Origin: Chloroflexota bacterium
GTDB taxonomy: Bacteria; Chloroflexota; Limnocylindria; P2-11E
Assembly (NCBI GenBank): GCA_025350745.1
Contig: JANXXG010000034.1
Span: 1-10,225, forward strand
DNA length: 10,225 nucleotides
Direction: 5' to 3'
Shown here: positions 1 through 10,225 of the stretch, one piece after another
Numbering within the stretch: the stretch's first letter is position 1
How the letters are laid out: each line of letters starts with the position of its first letter
The notes under the pieces: model-generated
Database searches by the model: none
What the model saw: only the letters and a program-made list of their open reading frames with translations
Told to the model about the DNA's origin: nothing
Position numbers and translations under genes: made by a program

Positions 1-1258
1 CCGGGTCGGGGAAGTTGCAGTTGAGGACGCCGTGGCCGTCCTGCGTGCCGGGGACCGCGACGCGGAGCGGGGCGTTGAAGAACCATTTGTTCTTGCCCTC
101 GCGCGGGTGCATGTCGAGGGAGATGCGGCCGGCGGGTCTCCCGTCGATCGTCACATCGAAGCTCTCGACGGACGGATGCCAGCGCTCCTCGTGGACCACC
201 GGGGTGAAGGTCATGTTGAAGAGCTCGCTGTTGAGGTCGAGGATCGCCTGACGCACCTTCTGGTACTCGAGGTAGGGGCGCATCTCCTGGGCGTCGTAGC
301 GGAAGCGCGTCGTCTTGACCTTGTTCGTGTAGTAGAGCTGCTCCCACTCGCCGATCGTCGTCGCGCCGGGGTGGTCGAGGCGCTTCTCCTCCAGCAGCAT
401 CTGGAACTCGGCCATCGCCGCCGGCCGGGCGATGGCCTCGATCTCCGTCAGGAAGCGTTCGAGCTGGTCCGGTGTCGAGACCATCCGCTCCTCGAGGTTG
501 TAGTGGGCCCAGGTCGGATACCCGAGCAGCCGCGCGAGCTCGTCCCGGGTGTGGGTGAGCTTCTTCAGGACCTCGATGTTCGGCTGCGCGCGATCGAGGC
601 TCTCGCGCTGCAGCGCCTTGCGCGCGCGATCGCTGTGCGCGTAGGTCATGAACGGGACCATGTCCGGCGGGTTCGTCGTGATGACGATCCCATCAGGACC
701 GGGCCGGTGCGCCTTCACGTAGTCGGCCGGTAGTCCGTCGAGCTCGGACACGCTCTCGAGCGTGATGTGGCGGGTGTCGTCGCGGATATTCCGGGCGTGA
801 TCCTGACCGAGTCTGGTGAGCGTCGCGCGTAGCTCGCGGGCCGTCGCGCGGTCGGCGTCACGCAGCTCGACGCCGGCGCGCTTCATATCCTGGCGCACGA
901 GCGTGACGAATCGCGTGTCGAGCGGGTCCTCCGTTGCGACGGCGCCGAGCGCGCCGTAGATGGCCGTGCTCTGGAGCGCGCGCTGGCCGAGGTCGATCGC
1001 TTCGCGTTGCAGGCGCTCGGCGGCGTCGCGGACGTCCTTGTCGGGATGCATGGCGGTGTAGATGCCGGCCTCGGCGCTGATGTTGGAGAGCTCGACGTGG
1101 AGGTCGTTCAACGGCGCGAGCACCGTCCCGACGGTGAACGGCGTCTTCGCCGCTTCGAGCTCGGCAAGGATCTCGTTCGCGCGCGCCAGGCGTTCGCGGT
1201 CGCGGGCTTCGAGCTGTTTCGCGGTGATCGGGGTCGGGGAGCCGGGGGTCTTCAGCAC
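1..1258 (-). CDS. M3 family zinc oligopeptidase (oligoendopeptidase-like), N-terminal part, truncated by window edge
   Basis: This is a cytoplasmic metallopeptidase of the thimet oligopeptidase/oligopeptidase F superfamily, which cleaves short peptides. Reading the minus strand gives 419 open codons that run off the left edge. The N-terminal half is helical and charged. Residues around 381-389 contain LDMHPREGK, preceded by GRISLD and followed by an aromatic WFFN stretch and VLNCNFPDP; this block is typical of M3 enzymes just upstream of the catalytic helix. The zinc motif HExxH should lie a few dozen residues past the edge and cannot be seen. I chose GTG at 1258 because the frame has no nearby ATG and this start sits 10 nt after the ankyrin gene's TAG; the ribosome binding site is weak. 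It is probably co-transcribed with the ankyrin gene. The family call is firm; the subfamily is not. Confidence 0.85.
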   Translation of the reverse strand, partial: MLKTPGSPTPITAKQLEARDRERLARANEILAELEAAKTPFTVGTVLAPLNDLHVELSNISAEAGIYTAMHPDKDVRDAAERLQREAIDLGQRALQSTAIYGALGAVATEDPLDTRFVTLVRQDMKRAGVELRDADRATARELRATLTRLGQDHARNIRDDTRHITLESVSELDGLPADYVKAHRPGPDGIVITTNPPDMVPFMTYAHSDRARKALQRESLDRAQPNIEVLKKLTHTRDELARLLGYPTWAHYNLEERMVSTPDQLERFLTEIEAIARPAAMAEFQMLLEEKRLDHPGATTIGEWEQLYYTNKVKTTRFRYDAQEMRPYLEYQKVRQAILDLNSELFNMTFTPVVHEERWHPSVESFDVTIDGRPAGRISLDMHPREGKNKWFFNAPLRVAVPGTQDGHGVLNCNFPDP

Positions 1259-1268
1259 CGGCCGCAGC

Positions 1269-1800
1269 CTAGCCGCTCCGCGCGGCGGCTTGCTCCAGGT
1301 GTTGCGCAAGCTCCGAATGGCCGTGCGTTCGCGCGAGATCGGCCGGCCTGCTGCCATCGCCGAGCGTGAGCGACGGGTCGGCGCCGGCGGCGAGCAGCGC
1401 GTCGACGATCTCCTGATCGCCGATCTGCGCGGCCTCATGGAGGGCGGTGAACGAATCCTGCTGCGCGACCGGCGATCGCGCTGTGGAGCGCGGTCACCTT
1501 CATCGCGTTGCGCGACGGCGCCGACACATCAGCACCTGCGGCGATGAGCAGGGTCACGACATCGGGATGCTTGAAGAAGGCCGCCAGCCCGAGGGGATGG
1601 AAGCCGTCGGGCGCGAACGCGCGCGCCAGCCCTGGATCGAAGTCGACGAGCGAGCGGACGCGATCGACGTCGCCTACGGCGCAGGCCTCGAAGACGTTCA
1701 GCTCCGGGCCGCTCGCGAGGATGGCCGCCACCGCGTCGGCGTCACCGCGGTAGACCGCCATCAGGAGGGCCGACACTCCGTTCTCGTCCATGCCGCCCAT
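1269..1800 (-). pseudogene. Ankyrin-repeat protein gene, frameshifted by an internal deletion
   Basis: Two reading frames on the minus strand together make one ankyrin protein. The first starts at ATG 1800 (MGGMDENG, alternative ATG 1791). It runs through repeats ending in LNVFEACAVGD, DGFHPLGLAAFFKHPDVV and AGADVSAPSRNAMKVTALH, then leaves the ankyrin pattern near 1475 and stops at 1435. From about 1465 the other frame resumes perfectly with DSFTALHEAAQIGDQEIVDALLAAGADPS and a C-terminal ADLARTHGHSELAQHL helix, ending at TAG 1271-1269. The distance between the two equivalent ALH motifs is 46 nt, whereas a 33-residue repeat needs 99, so about 53 nt are missing. Ankyrin repeats mediate protein-protein contacts; no partner can be named. 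It is either a genuine pseudogene or an assembly or sequencing deletion. A truncated product of about 121 residues could still be made. Confidence 0.75.
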
Positions 1801-1808
1801 TGAATGCC

Positions 1809-1814
1809 TAAACT
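1809..1814 (+). promoter_or_regulatory. Candidate -10 element (TAAACT) of fabF, possibly leaderless
   Basis: TAAACT fits the TANNNT pattern and ends 8 nt before the GTG chosen for fabF. That would put the transcription start at or next to the start codon, with no room for a ribosome binding site. No convincing -35 hexamer is seen. The gap between the divergent ankyrin ATG (1800) and fabF GTG (1823) is only 22 bp, so promoter parts must overlap coding sequence. This is inference from spacing only. Confidence 0.35.
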
Positions 1815-1822
1815 CGCAATCT

Positions 1823-3073
1823 GTGAATGGGGACCGGCGGCGCGTGGCGGTGACGGGCATCGGCATGATGACGCCCCTCGGAGCCACGGTCGAGAAGTCG
1901 TGGGCCGGGCTCACCGCGGGGAAGAGCGGCATCGGCCCGATCACCCGGTTCGACGCATCCGACCTTGACACGAAGATCGCGGGCGAGATCCACGACTTCG
2001 ACCCGCTCGAGTACATGGAGCGCAAAGAGGCCAAACGCGCCGACCGGTTCGCGCAGTTCGCGGTCGCGACCGCGGGTCAAGCGCTGAAGGACGCGAAGCT
2101 CGAGATCACCAAGGACAACGGGCCGCGCATCGGCGTTACCTTCGGCTCCGGTATCGGCGGCGTCGGCACGCTCGTTGACAACATCCTGGAGCACGAGAAG
2201 GATCCGCGGCGGGTGTCTCCGTTCATGATCCCGATGATGATCGTGGACATGGCCGCGGGCGAGATCGCGATGAAATACGGCGCGAAGGGCCCCAACCTCG
2301 CGACGGTCTCGGCCTGCGCGTCGAGCGCGCACGCGATCGGGGAGGCCGCTGACACGATCCGCCGCGGACAGGCCGACGTGATGCTCGCGGGCGGCAGCGA
2401 GGCCGGGCTGATCAAGATCGCCATCGGTGCGTTCGGCGCGATGCACGCGCTGAGCCGCCGCAATGACGATCCGGAGAAGGCATCGCGGCCGTTCGACAAG
2501 GATCGCGACGGATTCGTGTTCAGTGAGGCCGCCGCCTGCCTCGTCCTCGAGGAGGAGAGCATCGCAAGGGCCCGCGGCGCGAGGATCCTGGGCTGGGTCT
2601 CGGGGTACGGCGCCACGGCCGACGCGTATCACATCACCGCACCGCCGGAGGGCGCCGAAGGCATCGTGCGCGCGATGCGCATGGCCTTCGCCGATGCCGG
2701 CATCACGGCCGCCGACATCGGGTATGTGAACGCGCACGGTACCTCGACGCAAGCGAACGACAGCGCCGAGACCGCGGCGTTGAAGACGGTCTTCGGCGAC
2801 CGCGCGAAGCAGGTACCGATCTCGTCGACGAAGTCCATGACCGGGCACACCCTCGGTGCGGCTGGCGCGATCGAGGCGGTCATCTGCCTCCTCGCGATGC
2901 GCGACGGGATCCTGCCACCGACGATCAATCAAGAGACGCCCGACCCGGCATGCGATCTCGACTACATCCCGAACACCGCACGCAAGGCGAAGGCCGAATA
3001 CGCGCTCAGCAACTCCATGGGCTTCGGCGGACACAACGTCGCGCTCGTCATCCGCGGGACCACCGCGGCCTGA
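1823..3073 (+). CDS. fabF: 3-oxoacyl-ACP synthase II (KAS II)
   Basis: This cytosolic condensing enzyme elongates acyl-ACP with malonyl-ACP in type II fatty-acid synthesis. The thiolase-fold protein is 416 residues with the GTG start (VNGDRRRVAVTGIG), close to the 413 of E. coli FabF. The full catalytic triad is visible: Cys165 in VSACASSAH, His305 in NAHGTSTQAND and His342 in STKSMTGHTLGAAGA. Each is two residues after the E. coli position, which supports this start over the in-frame ATG at 1790. The C-terminal gate loop is SMGFGGHN. No good ribosome binding site precedes the GTG, and a leaderless transcript is possible. The stop codon overlaps the accB start (TGATG), so accB is translationally coupled. 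An acyl carrier protein gene, often next to fabF, is absent here. Confidence 0.95.
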   Translation: MNGDRRRVAVTGIGMMTPLGATVEKSWAGLTAGKSGIGPITRFDASDLDTKIAGEIHDFDPLEYMERKEAKRADRFAQFAVATAGQALKDAKLEITKDNGPRIGVTFGSGIGGVGTLVDNILEHEKDPRRVSPFMIPMMIVDMAAGEIAMKYGAKGPNLATVSACASSAHAIGEAADTIRRGQADVMLAGGSEAGLIKIAIGAFGAMHALSRRNDDPEKASRPFDKDRDGFVFSEAAACLVLEEESIARARGARILGWVSGYGATADAYHITAPPEGAEGIVRAMRMAFADAGITAADIGYVNAHGTSTQANDSAETAALKTVFGDRAKQVPISSTKSMTGHTLGAAGAIEAVICLLAMRDGILPPTINQETPDPACDLDYIPNTARKAKAEYALSNSMGFGGHNVALVIRGTTAA

Positions 3074-3573
3074 TGTCCGACCCGAAGCGCGTCCGGGCCG
3101 AGGCGAACGCGCTCGTCCAGGAGCTCCTGACCCGGCTCGACACGACGAGTGTTCGCGAGCTCGAGGTCACCCGGGGCACGTTGCGCGTCCGCGTCAGCAA
3201 GGACGCAGCGCCGGTCGCGGGTGCGCCCGTCACGAGCGCGCCCGTCGCGCAGGCCGCCCACGCGGCGACCGCGCCGGTGGGGGCGGCTGCCGCTGGCCCG
3301 TCCGTGATCACGGCCGCATCGGCGTCGTCGTCGAGCACCGCGATCACCGCCCCGCTGACCGGGATCTTCTATCGCTCTCCTTCACCTCAAGCGCCGGCAT
3401 TCGTCCAGGTGGGCAGCATCGTCGCTGCCGGTGACGTCATCGGGCTGATCGAGGCGATGAAGCTGTTCAACGAGATCCGGTCGACCAAGAACGGAACGGT
3501 CCGCTTGATCGTTGCCGACAGCGGTCAGCTCGTCCGTGCGCACCAGCCGCTCATCGAGCTCGACCTGGCGTGA
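3073..3573 (+). CDS. accB: Biotin carboxyl carrier protein of acetyl-CoA carboxylase
   Basis: This subunit carries the biotin that shuttles carboxyl groups between biotin carboxylase and carboxyltransferase to make malonyl-CoA, the substrate consumed by the upstream fabF product. It has 166 residues. Residues 1-45 form the N-terminal helix and strand (RVRAEANALVQELLTRLD). An Ala/Pro/Ser-rich flexible linker covers about 45-90. The biotinyl domain (about 91-166) has the conserved APLTGIFYRSPSPQAPAF segment, including the thumb region, and the attachment site EAMKLFNEI with biotin on Lys130. The ATG overlaps the fabF stop in TGATG. The usual accC does not follow; a YHS protein does. The domain call is secure and the AccB assignment rests on the fabF context and the N-terminal region. 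Confidence 0.93.
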   Translation: MSDPKRVRAEANALVQELLTRLDTTSVRELEVTRGTLRVRVSKDAAPVAGAPVTSAPVAQAAHAATAPVGAAAAGPSVITAASASSSSTAITAPLTGIFYRSPSPQAPAFVQVGSIVAAGDVIGLIEAMKLFNEIRSTKNGTVRLIVADSGQLVRAHQPLIELDLA

Positions 3574-3746
3574 TGAGCGCGACCTGCCCGACGTGTCACG
3601 CGCCGCTGGCGGACCCGCCGGCGTTCAAGCTTCGCTACGAGAGTCGCCTCTATGCGTTCGATCGCGAGGCCTGCAAGCGGATCTTCCAGGAGAACCCCGA
3701 CCGCTATCTCGACGCTGACGGTGGCGTGCTGCCGCAGCCGCGCTAG
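3573..3746 (+). CDS. Small YHS-domain putative metal-binding protein
   Basis: This 57-residue protein starts at an ATG overlapping the accB stop in TGATG and ends at TAG 3744-3746. Its N-terminus has a CPTCHAPL knuckle (Cys5, Cys8, His9), as in half a zinc ribbon. It is followed by a YHS-type core: YESRLYAFDREACKRIF with Cys34, then NPDRYL at 41-46. YHS domains occur in metal-handling proteins and as small stand-alone proteins, and are usually thought to bind a transition metal through the Cys residues. Being third in a strictly coupled fabF-accB cluster, it is almost certainly co-translated with them. A link to carboxylase or fatty-acid synthesis is inference, and no function is established. 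The C-terminal GGVLPQPR looks unstructured. Confidence 0.8.
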   Translation: MSATCPTCHAPLADPPAFKLRYESRLYAFDREACKRIFQENPDRYLDADGGVLPQPR

Positions 3747-3976
3747 GGACAGGCCGCGCGCGGATCGCCACGGCAGAGCGTGGCAATGGCTGCACCGGCA
3801 GGGCCGACCGCGAAGATGACCTCGATGGTCGCGAAGGCAAACCTCGCGTTCGCGTCCTCGCGCGGCACGATCGCGTAGAGCGAGGAGCCGACCGACGACC
3901 ACCAGACGTCGAGAACGTTACGCGCCGGTCCGATCACCTTCGTCGCCGGCCCGGTCGGGGAGAGTCCAGACCTCAC
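3743..3976 (-). CDS. Doubtful small ORF (77 aa) of unknown function in the convergent intergenic region
   Basis: From GTG 3976 the minus strand stays open for 77 codons to position 3743, overlapping the YHS stop by 4 nt. The product has a fairly protein-like composition: an aromatic VWWSSVGSSLYAIV segment, then one possible membrane or signal-like stretch (FAFATIEVIFAVGPAGAAIA), and an end with two cysteines. Against it: no visible ribosome binding site, no recognised family, the start lies inside a perfect inverted repeat, and GC-rich DNA often gives long open frames by chance. It could instead be the C-terminal remnant of a decayed gene, since the frame stays open upstream into the membrane-protein gene. 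I do not recognise it. Confidence 0.2.
   Translation of the reverse strand: MRSGLSPTGPATKVIGPARNVLDVWWSSVGSSLYAIVPREDANARFAFATIEVIFAVGPAGAAIATLCRGDPRAACP
3767..3784. terminator. Candidate terminator hairpin downstream of fabF-accB-YHS
   Basis: GCCACG and CGTGGC form a perfect 6-bp stem with a 6-nt loop, beginning 20 nt after the YHS stop codon. There is no T-tract on the plus strand, so it is at best a weak or atypical terminator. Its position between convergent transcription units is the main support. Confidence 0.3.
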
Positions 3977-3995
3977 GCGGCGCGCCGAGGTCTGG
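3966..3995. terminator. Perfect 9-bp inverted repeat, probable terminator for the minus-strand metal operon
   Basis: CCAGACCTC (3966-3974) and GAGGTCTGG (3987-3995) are exact reverse complements separated by a 12-nt GC-rich loop. It sits 70 nt downstream of the stop of the minus-strand membrane-protein gene and 220 nt downstream of the plus-strand YHS gene, so it could serve either converging unit. There is no run of T residues after it on either strand, so a protein-bound operator remains an alternative. The rest of 3747-4065 holds only the 6-bp hairpin at 3767-3784 and the doubtful small ORF. Confidence 0.45.
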
Positions 3996-4065
3996 CGCGG
4001 CTCGCCGATAGCGCAAGCGTCACCTTCCAGTGGACCGGTGGGCTCGGCTCGTCGGTGCGGCTCCG

Positions 4066-4890
4066 CTAGCTCCGCAGCACGCGGAGGGTGACGAGCTGCG
4101 TGATGAGCGCCGCAGCGACGGCGAGGGCGAACGCCGCAAGTCCGATCGGCTCGAGGAAGAGCGCGAGCATCAGGTAGAACGCGCCGAAGCCGAAGAGCCC
4201 GAATAGCAGCCCGCGCCACACGTCGATGGCCGCGCGTGGCCCGGCGAGGGTGTGGCCGAATCCGGCGAGGATGCTGGCGTAGAGCGGAACGGTCGCGAGC
4301 AAGCCGGCGAGGCGCGGGCCGAGGAGGACCGCGGCGTTCGTGATGGTGAGGACGAGCACCGTCGCGAGGATCATCCGAGCCGGAAGGTCCCACGACGGCA
4401 GCCGCACGTCGTCGTGCGTGAGTGACGCAGGGATCGCTCGGATGCCCACGATGAGGGCGATCACGAGCGCCAGGTAGAGCACGAGCGGCGCGGCCGTGAG
4501 CTCGCGCATCGCCGTTCCGAGGACCGCGAAGGACACGAGTCCCGCGGCCACTGAGAGTGCGAGTCCGGCACCCCGCTGTGCGACGGCGCTGTACGAGAGG
4601 GCCCACGCGATCGTGGCGAAGATGCCGAGCATCGAGCCGACGACGGCGTTCGTGGCAAAGGCCGCGCCGTGATCGCGGAACAGGAACAACGTGATCGGGC
4701 CCGAGGTGAACGGGAAGCCGACGAGCCAGCCGCTGATGGAGCTCCCCCAGCGCCGGCCGGCGAGGCTCGCCGTCCCGATGAGCAGCGGCGTGAGGACGAG
4801 CTTGAGCGCGAGCGCGGCGTCGATCAGGTGAAGAGCTGCGCGAGCACGAACACCACCGACATCGCGCTCACCAGGAAGGTGATGCCCCAA
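4066..4890 (-). CDS. Unrecognised polytopic membrane protein with internal duplication, coupled to the Nramp gene
   Basis: I do not recognise the family. The protein is almost entirely hydrophobic, with about nine predicted membrane segments and one clear hydrophilic loop (PASLTHDDVRLPSWDLP) in the middle. The two halves resemble each other: LTPLLIGTASLAGRRWG, then a segment with GWLVGFPFTSGP, matches LVLTITNAAVLLGPRL, then GLLATVPLYAS. The helices that follow each also align loosely. ATG 4890 is the only standard start but overlaps the Nramp gene by 67 nt and adds a hydrophilic, unconserved-looking N-terminus. A CTG at 4827 forms a CTGA overlap with the Nramp stop and would give a compact protein of 253 residues starting at the first helix; I think that start is biologically likely. 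It is the last gene of the PRC/MgtE_N/CBS-Nramp operon, so a transport-related role is plausible but unproven. Confidence 0.75.
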   Translation of the reverse strand: MGHHLPGERDVGGVRARAALHLIDAALALKLVLTPLLIGTASLAGRRWGSSISGWLVGFPFTSGPITLFLFRDHGAAFATNAVVGSMLGIFATIAWALSYSAVAQRGAGLALSVAAGLVSFAVLGTAMRELTAAPLVLYLALVIALIVGIRAIPASLTHDDVRLPSWDLPARMILATVLVLTITNAAVLLGPRLAGLLATVPLYASILAGFGHTLAGPRAAIDVWRGLLFGLFGFGAFYLMLALFLEPIGLAAFALAVAAALITQLVTLRVLRS

Positions 4891-6092
4891 CCGACGGTCA
4901 GGAGGAACCTGCCACTTGCCATGTCGCCGAGCAGCTTGCGGTCACCGGCGATGAGCATGACGAACACCAGGATGATCGGCAGCAGCAGACCATCGAGCAC
5001 CGCCGACAGGAAGATCACCTGGATCAGCGGCAGCCCCGGGATGATGACGAAGAGAGCGGCAAACCCAACGAAGAACGCCAGCAGACCGTAGAACACGGGG
5101 GCCTGACCCCAGCGCCAGTGGAGGCCGCGCTCCCAACCGAACGCTTCACAGGCGAAGTACGCGCTGCTCAATGGGACCACGCCGAGACCGAGCAACGATG
5201 CGGCCAGCAGTCCGACACCGAAGATCACCGTCGCGCTGCGGCCAGCCAGTGGTTCCAGGGCGAGCGCGGCATCGGCGGCGTCGGTGATCGTCCCTCCGAC
5301 CTTCCAGATCGTCGCGGCACAGGCCACGACGATCAATGCCGCCACGCCATTCGTGATGAGGGTGCCGAGGGTCACATCCACGCGCTCGTTCGCGAGATCC
5401 CGCGGGCCGAGCCCTTTATCGGCGACGTAGGACTGGATGAACGCCTGCCCCCACGGTGTGATGGTCGTCCCGACGACGCCGACCAGCGTGAGGAAGTACG
5501 CAGCCGTACCGGTGATCTCCGGCACGGCGAGCGCAGTCGCTGCATGACCCCAGTCCGGCTTGGCCAGGATCGCAGACACCGCGTATGCGATAGAGACCGC
5601 GCCGCCGATTGCGAGGAACCCGTACTGCACGCGACCGAAGTTACTGCGCGCGAGCACGATCAGGACGAGCGCAGCGGCCGCAATGCTGCTCACCTGGGGC
5701 GGCACGCCGAACAAGGACAGCGCGGCCGCGATCCCCGCGAACTCCGCCACCGTCGTACCGAGGTTGGCGATGAGCACGACGGAGACGGCAAGTGCCGTCC
5801 AGCGGACACCGAAGCGCTCCCGGATGACACCCGACAGCCCCTGGCCGGTCGCGATGCCGAGCCGCGCGCCGACCTCCTGCGTGAAACCGAGGGCGATCAT
5901 GGTGACCAAGAGCGCCCACATCAGGCCGTACCCGTACTGGGCACCTGCCAACGAGTATGTCGTGATGCCAGCCGCATCGTTGTCGGCGAATCCGCTTACC
6001 AAGCCAGGCCCCAGGACCAAGAGCAGGCCCCGGAAACGCGGTCTGCGCAGGCGCGGTCGGCGGGACGGCCTCGGCGCGGGCTCGCCGGTCAC
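4824..6092 (-). CDS. Nramp (SLC11) family divalent metal transporter, NRMT-like binding site
   Basis: This inner-membrane carrier has 422 residues, an Arg/Pro-rich N-terminal tail (about 5-21) and about 11 membrane segments. Helix 1 carries FADNDAAGITTYSLAGAQYGYG at 35-56, where canonical Nramp has DPGN; here it is D37-N38-D39-A40. Helix 6 reads VGTTITPWGQAF (207-218) where canonical members have an A-T-V-M-P-H pattern, so the metal-binding Met is Thr212 and the proton-linked His is Trp214. Glu117 in TTVAEFAG is kept, but the Asp usually three residues before it is Thr114. Canonical Mn/Fe transport is therefore unlikely. These losses, with the MgtE_N/CBS neighbour, point to Mg2+ (NRMT-like), which is inference. 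GTG 6092 overlaps the upstream TGA as GTGA, so I prefer it to the longer TTG start at 6125. Confidence 0.88.
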   Translation of the reverse strand: MTGEPAPRPSRRPRLRRPRFRGLLLVLGPGLVSGFADNDAAGITTYSLAGAQYGYGLMWALLVTMIALGFTQEVGARLGIATGQGLSGVIRERFGVRWTALAVSVVLIANLGTTVAEFAGIAAALSLFGVPPQVSSIAAAALVLIVLARSNFGRVQYGFLAIGGAVSIAYAVSAILAKPDWGHAATALAVPEITGTAAYFLTLVGVVGTTITPWGQAFIQSYVADKGLGPRDLANERVDVTLGTLITNGVAALIVVACAATIWKVGGTITDAADAALALEPLAGRSATVIFGVGLLAASLLGLGVVPLSSAYFACEAFGWERGLHWRWGQAPVFYGLLAFFVGFAALFVIIPGLPLIQVIFLSAVLDGLLLPIILVFVMLIAGDRKLLGDMASGRFLLTVGWGITFLVSAMSVVFVLAQLFT

Positions 6093-7342
6093 CGGGCCGA
6101 GTGACGACCCGAACGTTTTTTCCAACCGCGGGGCATCATGAGATCGACCACGTCGTCGACGGTGACCGACCCGATGAGACGACGGTCGGCATCGATCACC
6201 GGCAATGCCAGGAGATCGTATTTCGCGATGAGCGACGCGACGTCCTCTTTGTTGGTCGCCGCGTCGACCCTGAGCACATTCGGATTCATGATCGTCGCGA
6301 GTGGCGTCTCCGGTGGTGCCACGACGAGGTCCCGTAGCGAGATGTTGCCGTCAAGGCGACCATCTGCATCGACGACGTACAGGTAGTAGACCAGCGCGGG
6401 ATCCGGCTGCAGCTCGCGCAGCCGATCGATCGCCTGCCCCGCGGTGAGGTCACGCGGAAGCGCGAGAAAGTCGGTGGTCATGATGCCGCCGGCGGAATTC
6501 TCGTCGTGAGCGAGCAGCTCCTCGACGTCCGCGCCTTCCTCTTCTTCCATGAGCTCGATGAGCTCTTCACGCTTCTCCTCTGACAGATCTTGCAGCAGGT
6601 CGACCGCTTCGTCGGGATCCATCTCCTCCAGGATGTCGGCGGCACGCTCCTCGTCGAGGTCGCCCATGATCGCGGCCTGCATCTCCGGGTCGACCTCGCC
6701 GAGGGTCTCGGCCGCGGTCTCGACGTCGAGCTCATCGAACACGACGCGCCGCTCGTCCGCGGTCATCTCCTCGACGATGTCCGCGATGTCAGCGGGATGG
6801 AGGAGTGCGAGCTTCTGATGCGGAAGGGTCAGCCGCACGTTCTGCTGTTTCGACTCGAGCGGCTCGACGAGGTGCCAGGGGATCGTGCCCCGGGGGAGCT
6901 TGCGCCCGATGATGCCCGCGATCCGCTCGGCCGCGCGCTCACCGCCGATCTGCCGGAGGATCCCGCGCAATCCGACGTCCGCGCCGACCAGGAGCAGCTG
7001 CCCACCCTTGTCCTCGAGCTGCAGGTCGTTCACCCGAACGACCTTGGCCCCGTGGGTGTCGACGATCTGCTTGTCCAGGAGGTCGCGACCCAGGCGGAGC
7101 GCCTCCGGCGGTAGCTCGCCCGCCGCCGGGGGGACGGCCGTCGCCTTGAGCCGGTACTGGCCGCCGGTACGCTCGAGATCGGCCCAGCGGACGATGCGCT
7201 CGCCATCCGGACCCCGCAGGATGGCCCACTGGACGGCCGGGAACTGGTCCTTTGGGATGACCGCGACGTCCAGGAGGCGCCCGATCTCGGCCCCCGCCGG
7301 ATCGACCACTTTCGAGCGCCGGATCTCCGACAGGTATGGCAT
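6089..7342 (-). CDS. Soluble PRC-barrel/MgtE_N/CBS-pair protein, putative Mg2+ sensor and gate for the Nramp-like transporter
   Basis: This 417-residue cytosolic protein looks like the regulatory half of an MgtE magnesium channel without its membrane domain. In order: a PRC-barrel-like repeat at about 1-70 (EIRRSKVVDPAGAEIGRLLD), a second at about 80-165 (LLDKQIVDTHGAKVVRVNDL), an MgtE_N superhelix at about 175-280 (HPADIADIVEEM, ERAADILEEMDPDEAVDLL), then two CBS domains at about 286-345 (GGIMTTDFLAL) and 350-405 (IMNPNVLRV...LPVIDADRRLIGSVTVDDVVDLM). It ends in a short basic tail (RGWKKRSGRHSAR) where MgtE would continue into its plug helix and pore. In MgtE the acidic N and CBS domains bind Mg2+ and close the pore; this protein is similarly acidic. 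Its TGA overlaps the Nramp GTG. I chose ATG 7342 (MPYLSEIRRS) over an ATG 12 codons upstream because the domain starts there. Confidence 0.9.
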   Translation of the reverse strand: MPYLSEIRRSKVVDPAGAEIGRLLDVAVIPKDQFPAVQWAILRGPDGERIVRWADLERTGGQYRLKATAVPPAAGELPPEALRLGRDLLDKQIVDTHGAKVVRVNDLQLEDKGGQLLLVGADVGLRGILRQIGGERAAERIAGIIGRKLPRGTIPWHLVEPLESKQQNVRLTLPHQKLALLHPADIADIVEEMTADERRVVFDELDVETAAETLGEVDPEMQAAIMGDLDEERAADILEEMDPDEAVDLLQDLSEEKREELIELMEEEEGADVEELLAHDENSAGGIMTTDFLALPRDLTAGQAIDRLRELQPDPALVYYLYVVDADGRLDGNISLRDLVVAPPETPLATIMNPNVLRVDAATNKEDVASLIAKYDLLALPVIDADRRLIGSVTVDDVVDLMMPRGWKKRSGRHSAR

Positions 7343-7349
7343 TGGCTGG

Positions 7350-7355
7350 AGCGTA
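7350..7355 (-). promoter_or_regulatory. Candidate -10 element (TACGCT) of the metal-transport operon, possibly leaderless
   Basis: Read on the minus strand, TACGCT fits TANNNT and lies 7 nt before ATG 7342, too close for a leader with a ribosome binding site, and none is visible. A weak GTGAAT sits 17 nt further upstream in the -35 position. The geometry is the same as at fabF. This is inference from pattern and spacing. Confidence 0.35.
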
Positions 7356-7368
7356 GCCCGCGAGCCGC

Positions 7369-7374
7369 TAGAAT
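7369..7374 (+). promoter_or_regulatory. Candidate -10 element (TAGAAT) of the TPR-lipoprotein operon
   Basis: TAGAAT matches the bacterial -10 consensus at 5 of 6 positions and lies about 60 nt upstream of the TPR gene's ATG. No good -35 at ideal spacing is seen; a TTGGCT at 7342-7347 is 21 nt away. It would give a leader of about 50 nt containing the 7397-7413 inverted repeat and the GGAGG ribosome binding site. It faces the divergent TACGCT element 14 nt away, so the two promoters probably interfere with or share control. Confidence 0.4.
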
Positions 7375-7396
7375 TCACTCATACCCGAATGGCCGC

Positions 7397-7413
7397 GACG
7401 CATCCTGTGCGTC
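7397..7413 (+). promoter_or_regulatory. Inverted repeat in the TPR gene leader, possible operator or 5' UTR hairpin
   Basis: GACGCA (7397-7402) and TGCGTC (7408-7413) are perfect reverse complements with a 5-nt spacer, ending 6 nt before the GGAGG ribosome binding site (7420-7424). It could fold in the mRNA next to the ribosome site or bind a dimeric regulator between the two divergent promoters. The stem is short, so chance is possible. Confidence 0.3.
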
Positions 7414-7433
7414 TGCGTTGGAGGCAATGACCC

Positions 7434-8285
7434 ATGAAGACCATGATCGAACCCGGTGTCCGGACGCGTGCGTTCGCTGATCAAGCGGTCCAGGCGGCCC
7501 TGGAGGCTGATTGGACCCGCGCCCTGGACCTGAACACCCGGATCATCGAGGGGAATGCCGACGACCTTGAGGCTCGCAACCGGCTCGGCCGGGCGCTCCT
7601 CGAGACGGGCAAGCTGGAAGAGGCCAAGGCGACGTACGCCGAGGTCCTCAAGACCGAGCCGAACAATCCCATCGCCCTCCGCAACGTCGCCCGGCTCGCG
7701 ACGCTCATCGAGCACAAGACCAAGATCAACATGACGAAGTCGAAGACCCAGCCCCGCCTCTTCATCGAGGACATGGGCAAGACCGGGATCCTGCGCCTCA
7801 TCAACCCGGCCCCGCCGCACGTCGTGGCGAAGTACTCGCCCGGGGCCGAGGCCGAGCTCCGCGAGCGCGACGGCCTCATCGCCGTGCACGCGCGCGATGG
7901 CGAGCTCCTTGGCTTCCTCGAGCCGAAGGTCGGCCGTCGCCTGCTCGATCTGCTACGGACCGGGAACCAGTACGTCGTCGCGGTCGTGAGCAACGACCAG
8001 CAGAACCCGCGCATCGCGATCCGCGAGACGCTCCAGAGCCCCGAGAACGCCCAGCGCATCTCGTTCCCCGGCCACCACCGTCCCGCCGAGACGAAGGAGC
8101 GTGCCTACATCAAGGGCAACTTCTTCCGCTTCGGCTCAGAGGACGAAGAGGGCGAGGATGGCGAAGAGACCGAGCCGACCGCATCCAGCGCGGACGACGA
8201 GTCCGATCCCGCGGTCGACGAGAAGCCTCTGGCCATCGAGGTCGATGACGACGACGACGACGACGAGGATGAGGCCGACGGGTAG
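7434..8285 (+). CDS. TPR protein with HIRAN-like middle region and acidic C-terminal tail
   Basis: This 283-residue protein begins at ATG 7434, 9 nt after a strong GGAGG. Residues about 13-46 and 47-80 form TPR-like helical pairs (the second with RNRLGRALLETGKLEEAKATYAEVLKTEPNNPIAL), a scaffold for protein binding. Residues about 135-200 contain a conserved-looking block (LIAVHARDGELLGFLEPKVGRRLLDLLRTGNQYVVAVV). Its order of strand, DG turn, G-x-L and a helix with LLxxG resembles HIRAN domains, which act in DNA repair and remodelling enzymes; I hold this weakly. Residues 235-283 are a disordered acidic tail ending in seven consecutive Asp residues. No signal peptide is present, so it is cytosolic. 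It overlaps the lipoprotein gene by 17 nt or more. The TPR call is fair; the function is unknown. Confidence 0.8.
   Translation: MKTMIEPGVRTRAFADQAVQAALEADWTRALDLNTRIIEGNADDLEARNRLGRALLETGKLEEAKATYAEVLKTEPNNPIALRNVARLATLIEHKTKINMTKSKTQPRLFIEDMGKTGILRLINPAPPHVVAKYSPGAEAELRERDGLIAVHARDGELLGFLEPKVGRRLLDLLRTGNQYVVAVVSNDQQNPRIAIRETLQSPENAQRISFPGHHRPAETKERAYIKGNFFRFGSEDEEGEDGEETEPTASSADDESDPAVDEKPLAIEVDDDDDDDEDEADG
8247..8264 (+). repeat. (GAC)6 trinucleotide repeat
   Basis: Six exact GAC units encode most of the poly-Asp tail of the TPR protein. Just upstream at 8245 is an in-frame ATG for the next gene, from which the same repeat would read as poly-Thr. Unit-number changes would keep both frames open. 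Confidence 0.85.
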
Positions 8286-10074
8286 CGGACCCCTCCGCCT
8301 CGCGACCCACGCTCTCCTTTTCGTCCTGATCGCGACCGCCTGCGAGCCGACACCCAAAGTGGTGCCGAGCGGCGATGTCGCGGACGCGCCCAAGATCGCG
8401 CGCGCCGCCGGCGCCGTGCTGCTGCAGCTGTCGGCGTACGACTACGCCCTTGCGGGCAGCTATGCCGGCGAGAAGGTCCGTGTGGTCGGTCCCGAGCGGT
8501 ACATCGCCGTGAGCCGATCTCTGATCCCGAAGCTCGCCGAGCTGACGTCGACCTCGCTCTCCGCGACCGCGAACGCCGCTGGTCCGGTCCGCGACGCGGT
8601 CGTCTCGCTCGCCGACGCGCTCAACGACCTCGGCAAGGACGCCGGTAGCTACTCGGGCCTGAACGACGCCGGCGTCTTCGCGAGGATCGGCGGCGACGTC
8701 GGGACGGCCTGGGACCGGCTGAGAGCCCTCGCGAACATGCTCCCCCCGGATCCGGACCTCGCGAAGACACTCGCGCGCGGCCCCTCGTTCAGCGTGAAGG
8801 CCACCTCTGAATCGCTCTTCGTGCTGGCCGCGGGTCCGTATGCGACCGTCGCCGACGCGGATGCCGCGGCGAAGAAGATCGGCACCGTCATTTCCGTGAC
8901 GCGCGCGCCACCGTTCGTGGTGCGCGTCGTCACGTACCCGACGAAGCCGCTCGCTGATGCCGCCGGGGTCGCCCTCCGGGCCAAGGGCACCGACGTCATC
9001 TCCGTGTCGGAAGAGCGCAAGTACGCGTTCGCCCGATCCGGTCCCGCCCCTGATGTCGAGCTCTGGCGCGAGCCGACGCGCGTCGTGGATGGGCTCGGTG
9101 GGGCGCGCCGGGTCGCCCTGTCGCCGGACGCGAAATGGATCGCCGTGGGCACTGAGGACGGGACGGTCGCCATTTTCTCCGCCGAGGGCGTGCTCCGCGG
9201 GCTGCCGAGGTTCCCGGTCGGCATCAACGCGCTCCTGTTCAGCGGTGACAGCGCCTGGCTGTTCGCGGGCGGAGCGTCGGCGACGGTCCTCTTCGTTCCG
9301 TCGGGCGCGTCGCCGCTCAGTGCCCAGAACCAGATCCGGTTCCCCTCGGCGATCACGCAGGTGCTCTACGTCGGCGTGCCGACGGCCCGCGCGTTCGTCG
9401 CGGCCTCGAAAGGCGCGACCGGGATCGCCGCGGGCGGCGGCGGCCTCGTGGGCGCCCGCGCGCCGGATGGAGCCACCCTCGGTGATCCGTTCCCGATCGT
9501 GACCCCTGCGGCCGGGGCGCTCATCGCGGTGAGCGACACCGCCGAGATCTTCATCGCGACGACCACCGGCACCAGCACGGACGTCGAGCTGCTCCGCCTC
9601 GGTCGGGAACGGGTCACGCGCGGGGTGATCAAGATCCCGGGCATCGCGATCGATCTCGCGCTCGATCCGAAAGGTGACCGCGCGGCGCTCGTGACGGACC
9701 AGGGCACCTATCGGTTCTCGCCGCACGCGCCCGATCCCGCGGTCACTCTGCAGCGCGTCGGCCCGGCGGTCCGCGATGTCGCGTTCGACGCCGACGGCAC
9801 CTTCTACCAGCTGGACAAGGACAAGGTGACCGCGACCCGGATCGACGGCACGCAGCGCTGGCAGGCGCCGCTGACCGATGGACGGAAGCTCCTCACCGGG
9901 ACCCGGACGCTCGTCTGGGATGGGGCCGACGTCGTGTGGGCCATCGCCCCGGACGGGGCGATCGACGCTTTGGGCATCGATGGCCTGGTGCAGGACCTGG
10001 TGACGTCGGCGGACGGAAAGCGCGCGGCGGTGGTCCTCGACGGTCGGCGGGCACTAGTCTTCGAGCTGCAATGA
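8269..10074 (+). CDS. Putative lipoprotein with SPOR-like repeats and WD40-type beta-propeller
   Basis: The 601-residue protein starts with a lipoprotein signal: MRPTGSGPLRLATH, a hydrophobic ALLFVLIATA and Cys25, so it is probably lipid-anchored on the outer face of the membrane. Residues about 36-165 are helical and Ala-rich. Residues about 180-258 hold two SPOR-like beta-alpha-beta units (SLFVLAAGPYATVADADAAAKKIG and PFVVRVVTYPTKPLADAAGVAL); SPOR domains bind denuded peptidoglycan. From about 265 to the end are repeated blades such as RRVALSPDAKWIAVGTEDGTVAIFS, the pattern of a WD40/quinoprotein propeller. ATG 8269 lies inside the TPR gene, with a GAGG directly against it; ATG 8245 is an alternative that adds eight residues, mostly Thr. 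The stop overlaps the next gene as ATGA. Architecture is well supported, function unknown. Confidence 0.85.
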   Translation: MRPTGSGPLRLATHALLFVLIATACEPTPKVVPSGDVADAPKIARAAGAVLLQLSAYDYALAGSYAGEKVRVVGPERYIAVSRSLIPKLAELTSTSLSATANAAGPVRDAVVSLADALNDLGKDAGSYSGLNDAGVFARIGGDVGTAWDRLRALANMLPPDPDLAKTLARGPSFSVKATSESLFVLAAGPYATVADADAAAKKIGTVISVTRAPPFVVRVVTYPTKPLADAAGVALRAKGTDVISVSEERKYAFARSGPAPDVELWREPTRVVDGLGGARRVALSPDAKWIAVGTEDGTVAIFSAEGVLRGLPRFPVGINALLFSGDSAWLFAGGASATVLFVPSGASPLSAQNQIRFPSAITQVLYVGVPTARAFVAASKGATGIAAGGGGLVGARAPDGATLGDPFPIVTPAAGALIAVSDTAEIFIATTTGTSTDVELLRLGRERVTRGVIKIPGIAIDLALDPKGDRAALVTDQGTYRFSPHAPDPAVTLQRVGPAVRDVAFDADGTFYQLDKDKVTATRIDGTQRWQAPLTDGRKLLTGTRTLVWDGADVVWAIAPDGAIDALGIDGLVQDLVTSADGKRAAVVLDGRRALVFELQ

Positions 10075-10225
10075 CGGCCGAACGGCTCGACAGCTTCGTT
10101 CCCGTCGAGATCGTTCCCCTTCCCAGACCCCTCCACCGCTTCGGTAGCGCATTCCCCCTCGGCCTCGCCGAGGCGTACGTGACCGCGTACACCCAAGACC
10201 GAGCCGCGATCCTCGATCCGCTCGC
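10071..10225 (+). CDS. Probable DNA methyltransferase, N-terminal fragment cut by window edge
   Basis: ATG 10071 overlaps the lipoprotein stop as ATGA, and 51 codons plus two bases follow to the edge without a stop. The fragment ends FPLGLAEAYVTAYT-x6-AILDPLA. This resembles the start of adenine/cytosine DNA methylases of the DpnA/N4-N6 type, in which a helix leading to a P-x-x-L-A pattern precedes SAM-binding motif I (DPFAGSG); here DPLA would be its beginning. The catalytic (D/N)PP(Y/W) motif is outside the window. Family assignment is therefore tentative, and other Rossmann-fold methyltransferases are possible. Coding status is well supported by the overlap and the frame. Confidence 0.5.
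   Translation, partial: MTAERLDSFVPVEIVPLPRPLHRFGSAFPLGLAEAYVTAYTQDRAAILDPL

Follow-up and report, generated by a model that had tools for sequence, protein, structure and literature searches.

A pore-less MgtE-like sensor gene overlapping an NRMT-like permease gene in a Chloroflexota bacterium: a candidate two-gene system for divalent-metal import

Most members of the NrmT group of Nramp-related transporters adjoin a gene homologous to the N-terminal cytoplasmic domain of MgtE, and either feedback regulation or a chaperone role was proposed for this MgtE-like fragment, according to the sections consulted of Shin et al. 2014 (PMC4072509). The idea of feedback from such a sensor on its permease is therefore not new, having been printed in that paper, which left the role of the MgtE-like gene open. 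Here we analysed a stretch of 10,225 nucleotides from a Chloroflexota bacterium (contig JANXXG010000034.1, positions 1 to 10,225; hereafter the window), in which the gene of a soluble protein with PRC, MgtE_N and CBS domains overlaps that of an Nramp-fold permease of the NRMT kind. We suggest, with a probability of roughly 55%, that the two genes form a system for divalent-metal import, in which the permease would most likely carry Mg2+ and the soluble protein, called the sensor below, would be its cytosolic feedback subunit.

The pair resembles several described systems and differs from each of them. As in the NrmT pairs of C. acetobutylicum and A. capsulatum (Shin et al. 2014), an Nramp-related permease adjoins a pore-less gene for the MgtE cytoplasmic domain; the window, however, has no M-box and its permease occupies a different tree branch, and an N-terminal PRC part was recognised in its sensor, whereas no mention of PRC was met in the sections of PMC4072509 consulted. 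With EleNRMT (PMC8806188, consulted in part; PDB 7qia), its best solved relative, the permease has in common the fold and the DxxG-TxxA/T site, but its helix 6 site ends in T instead of A and it is not nested with EleNRMT in our tree. Like MgtE (TtMgtE, 2yvx and 2yvy; TIGR00400), the sensor has an MgtE_N domain and a CBS pair, the corresponding fold and six of six acids of sites Mg4 to Mg7; unlike MgtE, it has neither pore nor plug-helix acids, carries the extra PRC part and scores under the family cut-off. The whole sensor architecture recurs, at 35-41% identity across it, in PRC-MgtE_N-CBS-MgtE pore fusions (family f19 and genome G119; loci L193-L200), in which an MgtE pore lies in the same chain, whereas the window has a separate NRMT. 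In a literature search that left most subscription journals outside, NrmT and MgtE were found together only in PMC4072509 and PMC8806188; no paper combined MgtE with a PRC-barrel, or PRC-barrel, CBS domain and magnesium, and no later paper was found that tested what the MgtE-like neighbour of nrmT does.

Both genes lie on the minus strand. The sensor (417 amino acids, 6089..7342) is organised as PRC-PRC-MgtE_N-CBS-CBS, as indicated by Pfam, NCBIfam and homologues with the same domain set, and the permease (422 amino acids, 4824..6092) begins at a GTGA overlap (6089..6092) in which the sensor stop TGA and the permease start GTG share nucleotides. The initial annotation had reported this overlap and a PRC/MgtE_N/CBS protein devoid of any membrane domain, and Pfam, NCBIfam and the sequence bear it out. 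The N-terminal PRC part (6845..7342; Pfam PRC, strands in the predicted model), which we read as two barrels where Pfam calls one, bears the motif DKQIVDTHGAKVVRVND; D90, Q92, G98, R103, N105 and D106 of the sensor are invariant among 40 aligned sensors. It is followed by the MgtE_N domain (6497..6802; Pfam and alignment to TtMgtE) and the CBS pair (6128..6496; Pfam, alignment and fold match to 2yvy). The chain stops 17 residues past D400, in a short basic tail, LMMPRGWKKRSGRHSAR (6092..6142), at the place where MgtE has its plug helix; the tails of 17 other sensors, picked by pattern, have a median net charge of +4. The plug-helix acids of Mg2 and Mg3 (E258, D259) are absent, an ungapped count giving K408 and K409 in their place. 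Against TIGR00400 the sensor scores 193.3 bits, below the cut-off of 232.75, and no PF01769 pore is present. Judged from its sequence, the sensor is the cytosolic half of MgtE without the pore. Its structure model had a predicted template modelling score (pTM) of 0.53, because of which domain orientation was left unused, and no PRC structure was among the fold matches listed for it.

The sites at which MgtE is described to bind Mg2+ are largely kept in this cytosolic half. Taking the residues of sites Mg2-Mg7 of TtMgtE from PMC5882242 (consulted in part), alignment equates E59, D91 and D95 with E212, D244 and D248 of the window sensor, and D226, D247 and D250 with D376, D397 and D400, so that all six Mg4-Mg7 positions are acidic in it. 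Over 118 sensors, acids stand at the equivalents of E59, D91, D95, D247 and D250 in 109, 105, 116, 106 and 89 cases; at least four of the six are acidic in 101 sensors and all six in 22, the window sensor included. The mean acid rate over the six sites is 0.78, compared with 0.52 at 45 other acidic TtMgtE positions, and 1.6% of random sixes score as high, statistics that are descriptive because the sensors are related to each other. Phenylalanine F227 of TtMgtE is replaced by leucine in 100 of the 118 sensors; leucine is common in canonical MgtEs too (8 of 11), and nothing on ATP sensing was concluded from this position.

The permease (PF01566, 4e-79) has EleNRMT as its best solved relative at 302 bits, the next Nramp scoring 86. 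Its metal site consists of D39-A-A-G42 in helix 1 (5967..5978) and T209-T-I-T212 in helix 6 (5457..5468), in agreement with the NRMT binding-site motif DxxG-TxxA/T (PMC8806188), and DAAG with TTIT does not meet the Mn2+ Nramp (MntH) motif DxxN-A/CxxM. In a careful tree of 51 rows, in which Acidobacteriaceae relatives stand in for the A. capsulatum gene and the C. acetobutylicum NrmTs are not included, clade A (100/100), which includes the window's permease, is separate from two MntHs and from clade C, which carries DDDPSG; the tree flags clade C and MntH as meeting long branches. The motif and a position outside both MntHs tested support an NRMT-like identity of the permease. In the placement among SLC11 proteins that the initial annotation had called for, the permease came out apart from the MntHs; the branch that unites clades A and B with EleNRMT and the others has a support of only 92/73. 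A third Nramp, of clade C (DDDPSG and TTISPYLFFW), is found close to the pair in L003, L004, L019 and L030, on the opposite strand in the last two.

Could the permease import mainly Mn2+ (or be a mixed importer), with the MgtE-like protein reporting Mn2+, or Mg2+ status to a Mn2+ importer, as was suggested for Acidobacterium capsulatum? We regard this as unlikely but deserving of serious attention. The Acidobacterium capsulatum permease rescued a Mn2+-uptake mutant fully and a Mg2+ mutant weakly or partly (PMC4072509, consulted sections). In our tree, M-box-linked NRMTs and Acidobacteriaceae NRMTs share a 25-row clade (99/97) and clade A falls outside it, because of which the tree rules out neither Mg2+ nor Mn2+. 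The M-box riboswitch is a feature of Mg2+-specific NrmT members (same sections of Shin et al. 2014). In a scan of 17 loci, an upstream M-box was present at all but one of the 10 from Bacillota, the exception (L117) having no upstream sequence, and at none of 4 Acidobacteriota and 3 Chloroflexota loci; the Bacillota locus L156 has an M-box and no sensor. The absence of the M-box from the window and from these Chloroflexota loci speaks for a Mn2+ importer. Against a Mn2+ importer stand the DxxG-TxxT site, the relatives under M-box control and, both at one locus and phylum-wide, the alternation of the pair with the Mg2+ channel MgtE in its canonical form (see below). Of the earlier claim of Mg2+ transport, the NRMT-like character of the permease holds up, and Mg2+ is no more than the likely substrate, because transport by the A. 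capsulatum pair looked like that of Mn2+.

A tie between the two genes is visible far beyond the window. From a genome scan with NRMT patterns, the best 80 of 576 confirmed stretches were used as loci, and a sensor adjoins the NRMT in 71 of them, across 11 named phyla and with a median gap of 63 nt, so that the neighbourhood whose conservation the initial annotation had offered as a check is indeed kept. The sensor is upstream on the same strand in 68 of the 71, downstream in 2 and on the opposite strand in 1. In a sample of 151 genomes of the phylum, drawn evenly and at least 90% complete except for the window's own genome, an NRMT is found at most 1.2 kb from the sensor at 58 of 78 places, on the same strand at 54 of them. 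Annotated plasmid regions of Alicyclobacillus, Leifsonia, Mycolicibacterium, Rhodococcus, Arthrobacter and Citrobacter carry the pair in both gene orders. It would be very hard to maintain that these are chance neighbours in one lineage with no functional link: nothing beyond the few NRMT loci without a sensor (6 of 80) speaks for this, and it is contradicted by the 71 loci, the plasmids and joint presence or absence in 61 genomes.

Several observations concern the surroundings of such pairs. Genes of the MgtC/SapB family lie close to the pair on actinobacterial plasmids (L104 5291-6073; L105 4500-5210), and on a conjugative Citrobacter plasmid the NRMT and sensor (L108 961-3673) have ArsR/SmtB regulator and Tn3 transposase genes nearby, which shows that the pair can be mobile. 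One Bacteroidales locus (L123) holds two oppositely oriented pairs, at 2637-5230 (+) and 5932-8522 (-). A solitary sensor in genome G105 (L201 2428-3840, minus strand), with no NRMT beside it, has neighbours whose translations resemble, by eye, CTP synthase and ribose-phosphate pyrophosphokinase. In the window, a 274-amino-acid open reading frame (ORF), apparently multi-spanning and with no Pfam match (4066-4890, minus strand), overlaps the 3' end of the permease gene; the congener G001 has a 65% identical gene at the same place, though its permease is of another clade.

Within family f1 (this and similar labels are taxon codes), the permease beside the sensor belongs either to clade A, 70-72% identical to that of the window, or to clade B (42-47%; 42-48% over all 61 genomes), and by these identity ranges no genome among the 61 carries both. 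On a careful tree of 24 sensors, comprising 23 of the 24 f1 pair genomes (G024 omitted) and G028, with two rows partial, four changes of the A/B label are required; starred branches make every one of them necessary, and bootstraps give 4-4. By this tree, the permease beside a vertically inherited f1 sensor has switched type at least four times. The sisters G000 and G001 (100/100), whose sensors are 85% identical and which share the same downstream membrane gene, have a clade A and a clade B permease, respectively. Such swaps between permeases 42-48% identical might not be allowed by a tight and specific interface, and are one reason to consider that the MgtE-like protein never touches the permease, acting as a free Mg2+ buffer, a chaperone (an alternative named in the consulted sections of PMC4072509) or a reporter elsewhere, the operon being kept for metal balance. 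We find this rather improbable given the tight coupling of the genes despite their varying order, and two further results given below also speak against it.

The feedback reading gains from an exchange at the f1 locus. The pair is flanked there on one side by a beta-ketoacyl synthase gene (c1) and an ORF (c6), and on the other by a divergent TPR gene (c5), a WD40 gene (c2), c3 and c4, not all of which were seen in every genome. In G015 and G021 the place of the pair is taken by two convergent genes, one for a full-length MgtE and one for a stand-alone PRC protein, between c1 and c2, c3, c4 in G015 and between c6 and c5, c2 in G021. Both belong to genus g8, in which G008 and G012 have the pair. 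It is by these two relatives, together with the retention of MgtE_N-CBS and the lack of PF01769, that the earlier claim of an MgtE sensor parted from its own pore is supported, and the full-length MgtE at the same locus suggests that the pair does the job of a canonical Mg channel. G006 and G018 have a stand-alone PRC gene beside c5 and no adjacent MgtE; the neighbouring ORF in G006 is not an MgtE, its MgtE being on another contig, as is that of G018 (70% complete), which groups with the divergent type described below. The PRC proteins of these four genomes end right after the second barrel. Because Q92 and N105 of DKQIVDTHGAKVVRVND are changed in them and invariant in 40 sensors, we infer that this motif may contact the MgtE_N-CBS part. 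The four genomes, which have no clade A/B NRMT, are thus also without the MgtE_N-CBS half and keep the PRC part alone, which argues against a sensor that never touches the permease.

Over the 61 genomes, sensor and clade A/B permease occur together in 44 and are both absent from 17. Canonical MgtE is present in none of the 44 and in 11 of the 17 (Fisher 3.0e-8, uncorrected for shared ancestry). Six of the eleven score 323-426 bits, above the TIGR00400 cut-off (G015, G021, G030, G036, G050, G051); four were assigned by a quick tree that flags several meeting long branches (G006, G044, G048, G054), and G060 by identity and PF01769. In the phylum sample, over-cut-off MgtEs are found in 2 of the 53 genomes whose sensor and NRMT are adjacent and in 43 of 98 others (Fisher 5.5e-8, uncorrected likewise), and in 13 of 69 genomes with any sensor compared with 32 of 82 (p 0.008, uncorrected likewise); the eleven added in the second count carry PRC-MgtE fusions. 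By taxon code, families f1, f3, f4, f8 and f14 each have some members with the pair and others with MgtE.

This exclusion hinges on splitting canonical from divergent MgtE, because PF01769 alone gives an over-cut-off match in 16 of the 44 genomes that have the pair and in 11 of the 17 that do not. The 16 are divergent MgtEs, and the window's own genome is among those carrying one. Against TIGR00400, those of G000 and G026 score 224 and 215 bits, that of G018 being unscored, and the four examined (G000, G026, G018, G028) are without most Mg2+-site acids. Two from pair genomes (L076 2442-3809, minus strand; L078 2940-4328, plus strand), which score just below the TIGR00400 cut-off and have lost their Mg2+-site acids, are possibly MgtEs without Mg2+ feedback. 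In G028 an ORF of 1042 amino acids (L079 2803-5928, minus strand) has two MgtE_N stretches, a CBS and one MgtE pore.

The sensor is also found within MgtE itself. Eight ORFs of 650-751 amino acids, seven from f19 and one from G119 of f32, have a full sensor followed by an MgtE pore, which again argues against a protein that never meets its transporter. At the same time, the 11 PRC-MgtE fusion genomes of the phylum sample all have a separate solitary sensor with no NRMT within 1.2 kb, as a freely acting protein might. Two database proteins of about 600 amino acids (P0154, P0178) likewise combine PRC, MgtE_N and CBS with a weakly scoring MgtE pore. The corresponding fusion to Nramp, suggested earlier as a check, did not materialise among the candidates: an 852-amino-acid ORF of G019 has a 2-bp gap at the joint compared with its sister G025 and so is a frameshift fusion, possibly an assembly error; P0123 and P0152 appear out of frame between domains, P0151 has neither the CBS pair nor the metal-site Asp, and P0124 passes through a membrane stretch and then appears frameshifted.

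In addition to the PF01769 count, a number of points weigh against a feedback subunit of a Mg2+ importer. No clean sensor-Nramp fusion was found in the searches made or in the 80 NRMT loci, of which 6 have no sensor and 3 are cut by a contig end. Plasmid regions viewed in Methylobacterium and Alicyclobacillus curvatus have an Nramp without a sensor neighbour, and 20 of the 78 sensor places in the phylum sample have no NRMT within 1.2 kb, some being at contig ends. The D226 equivalent is acidic in just 30 of the 118 sensors. No M-box (RF00380) was detected in the window at E up to 1. Both the pair and an over-cut-off MgtE occur in G089 and G189, and the summed score of the G028 ORF, 301 bits, exceeds the TIGR00400 cut-off, with 226.9 for its best single stretch; counting G028, 3 of the 53 adjacent-pair genomes have such an MgtE. 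CorA is present in 44 of the 61 genomes, the window's own included. Finally, in the consulted sections of PMC4072509, NrmT functions without the fragment, co-expression gave no better rescue for the A. capsulatum pair, and that permease seems Mn2+-specific; this co-expression test looked for better rescue and not for inhibition, with a pair that seems to carry Mn2+.

The domains, most of the Mg2+-site acids, the two-gene coupling and the alternation with canonical MgtE can all be read directly from the genomes. Sensor and permease are very likely tied in function, with Mg2+ as the likelier substrate. That the sensor gates the permease, as the initial annotation proposed, is favoured by the conserved adjacency and disfavoured by the lack of a clean fusion, the absent plug-helix acids and the A. 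capsulatum co-expression result. With this in mind, one may speculate on how a feedback subunit would work. The NRMT-type permease would transport the metal, most probably Mg2+, and the soluble PRC-MgtE_N-CBS protein, translated together with it, would bind Mg2+. In its compact form the sensor would dock at the membrane, perhaps through the basic tail or the PRC barrels, and once docked would lower the activity of the permease.

The 71 adjacent pairs among 80 loci, the switching of permeases, the MgtE and PRC gene at the same locus, the phylum-wide contrast with MgtE and the kept site acids are new here. Tentatively, and with somewhat less than even odds, they may be read further: PRC-MgtE_N-CBS would be a portable Mg2+-feedback module for more than one transporter fold, serving an MgtE pore when fused to it and at least two NRMT lineages when separate, with the permease swapped under a constant sensor and the whole pair swapped for MgtE at one locus; the separate module would then act through its basic tail and PRC barrels and not through a plug helix. 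The natural exchanges, of two permease kinds beside one sensor lineage and of the pair for MgtE, lend themselves to comparisons that ask whether transporters of unrelated fold can be gated by a single metal-sensing module.

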